Source: Bacillota bacterium (lineage in GTDB: Bacteria > Bacillota > UBA4882 > UBA10575). From it: a stretch of DNA of 49,020 bases. Position 1 is the first letter of the stretch. Every line of letters starts with the position of its first letter. Under the pieces are notes generated by a model. That model saw only the letters and a program-made list of their open reading frames with translations, made no database searches and was not told where the DNA came from. Shown piece by piece: positions 2,415 through 49,020 of this stretch. The stretch spans positions 1 to 49,020 of the forward strand of contig DUNX01000082.1 in NCBI GenBank assembly GCA_012839115.1. Reading direction: 5' to 3'. The translations under genes were made by a program, and so were the position numbers.

Positions 2415-2859
2415 GGAGTCTCGTGGACTCGTCGCTCGTCGCTGGTTGCTCGTCGCTCGTACTTAAAGCATACTGTTGGAAACCGGTATTGCTCGTGTTT
2501 AAGTATCCCGTTGGAGTTAAGCACCAAAACCAGGCCAGGGCCCGGCGCTCTACCCCAGCGCGCCGGGGGGCTACCCTTGCCGGATTGCCGGCAGGCTAGC
2601 CCGCAATCGCCACTAGCGGCGTTAGGAGCGAGCAGGGCAAGGCGCGAGGGAGGACGGAGCGCAGATAATACTTGGGTATATCGAGCACCGCCCGCACCGA
2701 GCAACGCAGCCATGCGACGCTAATAAGGCCGCGTCTGCCGGCAATCCGGCAAAACACCATCAGCCTTTCCCCTATGCCACTCGTTACCCATTGCCCGCAT
2801 TCAACACCTATTCGCCACGAGCGACGAGAGACGAACAGCCTTATGCTATTCGTCGCCCG
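2415..2859. repeat. Noncoding element with nested inverted repeats (MITE/REP-like)
   Basis: The whole 445-base gap between the greA promoter and the dusB stop has no credible gene. It is built of nested inverted repeats. The outer pair, CTCGTCGCTCGT at 2449-2460 and its exact complement at 2817-2828, sits in runs of CGTCGCTCGT-like direct repeats. The inner pair is perfect over 18 bases (2577-2594 and 2735-2752, core GCCGGATTGCCGGC). The inner 140 bases are GC-rich and contain a GGCGCGAGGGAGGACGG stretch. The left end touches the greA -35 box and the right end touches the dusB stop. The architecture suggests a miniature mobile or REP-type repeat, or a structured RNA. Copy number in the genome is unknown. 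Confidence 0.6.
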
Positions 2860-3846
2860 TCAATCCTCCTCACCGGCGCAGGCTTGCTCGTATTCATCCA
2901 GGATCGCCAGGATTTCCTTTTCCGTACCGGCCCGGTAAAGGTGCTCCCGAACCCGGGCGGCGCCGGGAAAACCCTTGATGTACCAGGCCAAATGTTTGCG
3001 CATCTCCCGCACTCCCCGGTCCTCGCCGTAGCAGGCGATCTGTTGCTGCAGGTGAAACCGGGCCAGTCCAAGGCGTTCCCGGCGTAAAGGTTCCGCCGGC
3101 AGGGGTTTGCCGGCCAGGGCCGCGACCACCGACCGGATCAGCCAGGGGTTGCCCAATATACCCCGGCCAAGCATAAACCCGGCGCAACCGGTTTTCTCCT
3201 TCATCTGCAGGACATCTTCGGCGGAGAAAAGATCCCCGTTGCCGATAACCGGGATGGTGACTGCTTCCTTTACCCGTTTGATCACGCCCCAGTCGGCCCT
3301 TCCCTGGTAGAAATCCTCCCGGTAGCGCCCGTGGACCGCCACGGCGGCCGCCCCTGCTTCCTGGCAGAGCCGCGCCAACTGGGGGGCCACTTCCGCCCCT
3401 CTTTCCCACCCGGCCCGCATCTTCACGGTCACCGGCCGCCCGGCCGCCTCGACCACGGCGGCGACAACCTCCGCCGCGCGGGGCAGGTCTTTCAGCAGGG
3501 CGGCGCCTTCCCCGTTCTTTACCACCTTGGGGACGGGGCAGCCCATGTTAATATCTAAAAAGGCAAAAGGGTAGGCCTGCAGCAACCCGGCGGCCCGGGC
3601 CATCAGCCCGGGGTCGGAGCCAAAGAGTTGCATGCTGACCGGCCCTTCTGCCTCTTCTGTCCGCAGGAGTTCCTTTGTCCGCTCGTTACCGTAGAGAAGC
3701 GCTTTGTCACTGACCATCTCGCCGCAGACCAGCCCGCAGCCGAACCTCTTGGCGATCTTCCGGAATGGTAAATCCGTCACCCCGGCCATAGGGGCCAGCA
3801 CCACCGGGTTCTCCAGTTCAACCGGGCCGATTCTCAACTTCACCAT
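2860..3846 (-). CDS. dusB: tRNA-dihydrouridine synthase (DusB family)
   Basis: FMN-dependent enzyme that reduces uridine to dihydrouridine in the D-loop of tRNA. The 328-residue protein begins LRIGPVELENPVVLAPMAGVTD, the typical TIM-barrel start. It carries the catalytic cysteine motif NMGCPVPKVVKNGEGAALL, the VTVKMRAGW strand and the FMN phosphate-binding GRGILGNPWL. The reading frame is open upstream to 3975, but the ATG at 3846 has AGGAG seven bases ahead and starts exactly at the family N-terminus. It has its own promoter (3898-3926). Its 3' end runs straight into the noncoding repeat element. Confidence 0.95.
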   Translation of the reverse strand: MVKLRIGPVELENPVVLAPMAGVTDLPFRKIAKRFGCGLVCGEMVSDKALLYGNERTKELLRTEEAEGPVSMQLFGSDPGLMARAAGLLQAYPFAFLDINMGCPVPKVVKNGEGAALLKDLPRAAEVVAAVVEAAGRPVTVKMRAGWERGAEVAPQLARLCQEAGAAAVAVHGRYREDFYQGRADWGVIKRVKEAVTIPVIGNGDLFSAEDVLQMKEKTGCAGFMLGRGILGNPWLIRSVVAALAGKPLPAEPLRRERLGLARFHLQQQIACYGEDRGVREMRKHLAWYIKGFPGAARVREHLYRAGTEKEILAILDEYEQACAGEED

Positions 3847-48917: not shown

Positions 48918-49020
48918 TTACTTGGCGAATGCAAAGGACGGGGACGGGGCGGGACGCACGACGCGGCCCGTTGGCTTCCGGGACAAGGAGGTCCCGTAAG
49001 CCATGTACTCGTCCCCGGCC
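48918..49020 (-). CDS. C-terminal end of an unidentified gene running off the right edge
   Basis: On the minus strand the frame ending at a TAA (48920-48918) is open to the window edge, 33 codons (ending SPSFAFAK). Nearly all third positions are G or C, unlike the other two minus frames, which suggests real coding sequence. The fragment (GDEYMAYGTSLSRKPTGR and a Pro/Ala-rich end) is too short to assign to a family. Confidence 0.4.
   Translation of the reverse strand, partial: AGDEYMAYGTSLSRKPTGRVVRPAPSPSFAFAK

Follow-up and report, generated by a model that had tools for sequence, protein, structure and literature searches.

Our analysis indicates that the spacer between dusB and greA contains, with a probability of about 0.78, one copy of a non-autonomous, orientation-biased, MITE-like element with a constrained hairpin core. 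The spacer lies near one end of the stretch of DNA that was analysed as a whole (the window, 49,020 nucleotides of contig DUNX01000082.1 from a member of the Bacillota). Mobility was established by comparison, namely from filled and empty orthologous sites and from related copies in a second genome (G141) that carry terminal inverted repeats (TIRs) and target duplications. The initial annotation had proposed a miniature mobile element as one of its readings, and the multiple copies, the empty site and the G141 relatives all bear this out. The spacer is neither a single-copy sequence nor one lacking structural conservation, since there are 26 matches in its own genome (BLASTN; 148 contigs, 97% complete) and its core covaries.

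The dusB-greA spacer and its anatomy

Three genes on the minus strand define the locus: lysS (279-1781), greA (1820-2305) and dusB, encoding a dihydrouridine synthase (2860-3846), whose 3′ end is followed by the element. The greA promoter (TTGACA-N17-TATAAT, 2414-2386, minus strand) matches the consensus at 12 of 12 positions, adjoins the spacer and is retained in the congener G002, where the site is empty. From this promoter to the dusB stop at 2860 there are 445 bases without a credible gene, the open reading frames being short and mutually overlapping. The spacer is thus, as first described, flush against the -35 side of greA and the dusB stop, and has no coding explanation. The proposal that 2415-2859 forms a single unit holds for the gap but not for the element, whose conserved core spans 2541-2753 and whose inserted part, as judged from the segment missing at the empty site, spans about 2459-2849.

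The shared core of approximately 213 bp (2541-2753) could be defined because many distant matches begin at 2540-2542 and stop at 2753, and it consists of a GC-rich hairpin followed by a long imperfect hairpin. The closest relatives have more flank in common with the window copy than the core alone. Read on the plus strand, the spacer contains left heptamer-type direct repeats in the insertion-site region (2428-2460, with CTCGTCGCTCGT at 2428 and 2449; such heptamers are also present at the empty site L190), and a left extension (2461-2540) that is subfamily-specific, weakly conserved and common to copies L123 and L138. Then follow GC-rich hairpin 1 (2541-2567, CCCGGCGCTCTACCCCAGCGCGCCGGG), which is found in class-wide copies, the 5′ arm of the basal stem (2577-2594), and the long imperfect hairpin (2618-2731) with conserved internal mismatches and a near-invariant apical stem (GATAATAC/GTATATC). 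The core ends directly after the 3′ arm of the basal stem (2735-2752; CCGGCAAA), and a right extension toward dusB (2754-2848) contains an inverted heptamer copy at 2817-2828.

Both inverted repeats of the initial annotation are exact, the inner one over 18 of 18 bp (2577-2594/2735-2752) and the outer one over 12 of 12 bp (2449-2460/2817-2828). Dinucleotide shuffling of 2415-2860 (200 replicates) never gave a perfect inverted repeat above 12 bp, a length that was reached in three replicates; the 18-bp repeat is accordingly well beyond chance and the 12-bp repeat is marginal. The outer pair is built from heptamer direct repeats (CTCGTCGCTCGT at 2428, 2449 and 2849), and its earlier interpretation as the boundary of the element was mistaken, as it derives from arrays of the heptamer CTCGTCR and not from a terminus. 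CTCGTCR heptamers occur on both strands and form arrays elsewhere too; at dusB-greA they are the insertion site. Arrays of (CTCGTCR)n are scattered intergenically in the window's family and in one more family of the class, including at places that have no core (window 2428-2460 and 2849-2860; loci L116, L119 and L139).

Copies, empty sites and relatives with terminal repeats

Of 61 relatives searched by BLAST, 21 had matches. With a covariance model built on the inner 179 positions, 21 of the 29 class genomes proved to carry the element (1-15 copies each) and eight did not; this model also gave weaker yet significant matches in a small number of further families of the phylum. None of 80 greA loci from named genomes, which represent single loci and not whole genomes, carried the element. 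A phage or plasmid origin was rejected, since the plasmid, phage and viral collections searched gave no match. No family of Rfam 15 came near its gathering score, the best chance matches being far below. The element appears to be novel with respect to Rfam 15 and the open-access literature, and a relative may be deposited in ISfinder. Like known MITEs, the copies are dispersed, multicopy, non-coding and short, and they show presence and absence at orthologous sites.

At the locus itself, the empty site is the dusB-greA spacer of G002 (L190), a member of the window's genus with approximately 87% identical flanks, which is without window positions 2459-2849 (about 391 bp); the junction has a 9-bp overlap located inside the heptamers. 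Five more members of the family likewise gave no core match at greA. As these and G002 are without the core, the situation is most simply explained by an insertion in the lineage of the window. Further filled/empty pairs were found between G009 and G004 (L146, L147, L148) and between G002 and G000 (L135, L136). Clean duplications are not seen at their junctions, which overlap imperfectly or contain 7-116 bases of unrelated filler. At one of the 'empty' sites (L229) the 3′ end of the element is still present, which marks this site as a deletion remnant. Within the window's own family neither a clean target duplication nor a terminal inverted repeat bounds the inserted segment, whose edges either fall within heptamers or vary through filler, and the 18-bp basal stem is internal to this segment.

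Clean ends were found in G141, a complete Bacillota genome from another family of the phylum. Here the model detected ten near-identical copies of 156 bp whose ends are GTGCGTGTTCAAAAAGTCC and (inverted) GAGGATGTTCAAAAAGTCC, forming terminal inverted repeats of approximately 20 bp. Perfect 5-bp A/T-rich target duplications flank eight of the ten copies, while one has a 6-bp repeat and one matches at four of five positions. With terminal inverted repeats and 5-bp target duplications the G141 copies are MITEs; besides these ten, the genome has two more copies and a damaged one. Their interior is related to the window core (local score 26 versus a maximum of 16 in 1000 shuffles; 31 with the family consensus) and folds into a similar long hairpin. 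No such pair of ends in G141 encloses a transposase gene, either exactly or with up to three mismatches, and more diverged ends may exist; a MITE can outlive its autonomous partner, so this is still compatible with a MITE. The G141 copies are much shorter than those of the window's family and are without hairpin 1, so that it is an extrapolation to assume the same class of enzyme for the mobility of the latter. Some G141 genes have their stop codon inside the duplicated target, immediately ahead of it, or within the first 30 bases of the element. At L264, L266 and L267 the insertion supplies or nearly supplies the stop of the upstream reading frame, which is located either at the junction or 29-30 bases into the element.

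A conserved fold in a fixed orientation

RNAalifold predicted one long imperfect hairpin of 46 pairs from 22 copies, with two-sided changes in at least one copy at 19 of these pairs. Paired cells amounted to 96.4% as compared to 89.5% in shuffles, the covariation score was reached by none of 500 shuffles, and the signal was destroyed when the partners were slid by 1-3 columns. In 48 dereplicated class copies there were 1823 Watson-Crick cells versus 1424 expected from column make-up, in an alignment that was fitted to the model and so leans towards it. The folding energy is 4.65 SD below shuffles. Within the window's family the apical stem is near-invariant and internal mismatches recur at fixed positions. 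The structure of the core is therefore probably under selection, with compensatory change beyond column make-up and register. Correction of quasipalindromes by template switching is another possible source of compensatory changes, one that needs no selection; that internal mismatches are conserved speaks against its being the only cause. Neither of two approaches robustly distinguished the folded strand. The plus strand showed 74 G-U versus 43 A-C combinations in the 48 class copies, but three pairs give most of the excess (47:42 without the three most G-U-rich pairs), and DNA folding parameters did not separate the strands (z -4.64 for plus, -5.08 for minus). Of the long structured RNA that had been suggested for this spacer, the structure is supported by the covariation, and the selected form may be RNA or folded DNA.

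Using a simple ORF caller, we classified 85 copies by their flanking open reading frames. Where the genes on both sides are co-directional, the plus-strand core was antisense to them at 58 sites and sense at six, counts that are not fully independent as some loci are orthologous. This bias recurred in the window's family (27:1), a second family of the class (13:2), G141 (9:1) and elsewhere (9:2). The remaining sites were convergent (12), incomplete (8) or divergent (one weak match), and the median distance to the upstream stop codon was 43.5 bp. Genes in these genomes are strongly strand-biased, which makes replication direction a genuine confounder: at almost every site the direction of the neighboring genes is also the likely direction of replication.

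Under the favored reading, a transposase acting in trans, probably of the DDE type in view of the TIRs and short A/T-rich target duplications, would recognize the ends of the element and perhaps its folded core too. Insertion would be directed to, or tolerated only at, the 3′ ends of transcription units and in one orientation. At dusB-greA the element would have joined the 3′ region of dusB and left the greA promoter untouched; any effect on the stability of the dusB mRNA 3′ end is putative and would be secondary at most. A more far-reaching version, which we regard as speculative, is that of mobile hairpins spread across a number of Bacillota families and guided by transcription to the 3′ ends of transcription units in one orientation, because either the transposition machinery or RNA polymerase at termination would read the folded core (as RNA or template-strand DNA).

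The orientation could also be explained in other ways. The fold might act on the upstream transcript as a functional 3′-UTR module that stabilizes or processes the 3′ end, with selection fixing the orientation and mobility only spreading the module. The 58:6 ratio behind stop codons, the single weak match between divergent genes and the deep conservation of the fold, including its mismatches, agree with such a module, and ERIC insertions are known to alter mRNA stability in an orientation-dependent manner (PMC2229807). We nevertheless consider it rather unlikely, because presence is patchy, the same gene having the element in one species and not in its sister, because eight class genomes are without it, and because the pairing shows no clear strand preference. 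About equally doubtful is an orientation set by replication, in which insertion would occur via a folded lagging-strand template while genes lie mostly on the leading strand. The near-complete coincidence of gene and likely replication direction agrees with this explanation, but at the single informative discordant site (L299) the orientation follows the gene. Moreover, three of seven convergent or unclear sites (L286, L296, L308) oppose the majority strand, where approximately 90% agreement would be expected; these are small numbers, and the majority strand is a proxy for replication direction. Transcription explains the orientation better than replication and is favored but not proven, the two being not fully separated.

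Two further identities are very improbable. Group IIC introns occur in fixed orientation behind genes, and the present copies recall them in this respect, so that a group II intron, retron or other reverse-transcribed RNA element inserting behind terminators was considered. However, the many-copy carriers G000, G002, G009 and G025 encode no reverse transcriptase, and no Rfam family was near threshold. The REP/BIME-like unit of the initial annotation, which would be mobilized by a RAYT (Y1 transposase), likewise had to be abandoned. It shares with the present element its nature as a multicopy, extragenic palindromic repeat, but size and architecture differ (a 213-bp core as compared to 20-40 bp for REPs, PMC3733652), the G141 copies have 5-bp target duplications, and Y1_Tnp (PF01797) was absent from the 97% complete genome while control genomes were positive in the same search.

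Comparison with known repeats and nested forms

Among described repeats, the Correia/NEMIS and RUP MITEs are similarly short (100-200 bp), non-coding and dispersed with highly paired transcripts (PMC2229807), and their TIRs and target duplications are matched by the G141 relatives. They differ from the present element, which has an asymmetric covarying hairpin core with conserved mismatches and a strong fixed orientation behind genes, and which in the window's family is larger, with an additional GC hairpin and a left extension of approximately 100 nt. The enterobacterial ERIC/IRU elements are also intergenic imperfect palindromes whose orientation matters for upstream mRNA stability (PMC2229807, PMC3049150), whereas in the present case a bias in orientation is seen in the genomic distribution as such, and in more than one family. 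SPRITE, BOX and RUP of Streptococcus pneumoniae form stem-loops 3′ of genes and are enriched between convergent genes (PMC3049150), in another host group and with another anatomy. The likeness to these pneumococcal repeats and to ERIC/IRU is by description, as is that to integron attC sites, which share a fixed place behind a gene and a folded bottom strand. Bacterial miniature elements are usually taken as symmetric inverted-repeat leftovers; here, an asymmetric core shows compensatory change across several Bacillota families, and the fixed orientation behind genes extends to near-identical recent copies in one genome. With this element one could test for a steering of insertion by transcription or replication, and for a genome-wide influence of such repeats on mRNA 3′ ends.

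In G002, contigs L131, L132, L133 and L134 terminate at or inside core copies, two of them adjoining a ACGCGCGCGTAGCGCGCG palindrome, which indicates that assemblies break at the element. The repeat model might therefore be useful for annotating poorly studied genomes with such breaks. Some nested or inverted forms could be assembly errors at inverted repeats. At L124 (1102-1480) and L128 (1330-1730) the interior between the basal-stem arms is inverted with respect to other copies, by either a recombination flip or an assembly artefact. Many copies in the window's genus are longer and contain a 210-bp hairpin (B) in their apical part. Hairpin B is confined to this genus, and the mapped examples are enclosed by the basal stem of a core copy. 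An independent mobile element was rejected, as full-length copies in three genomes (g1) were inside core copies wherever both were mapped, and an apical insertion within a sub-family is the better explanation of B. A fragment at 48944-49011 of the window is 84% similar to part of hairpin B. In G025, two copies (L240 and L241) carry short perfect palindromes (CGCCTCTCCAGAGAGGCG and GCGTCCTTTGGGACGC) in their hairpin loops and thus form hairpins within hairpins.
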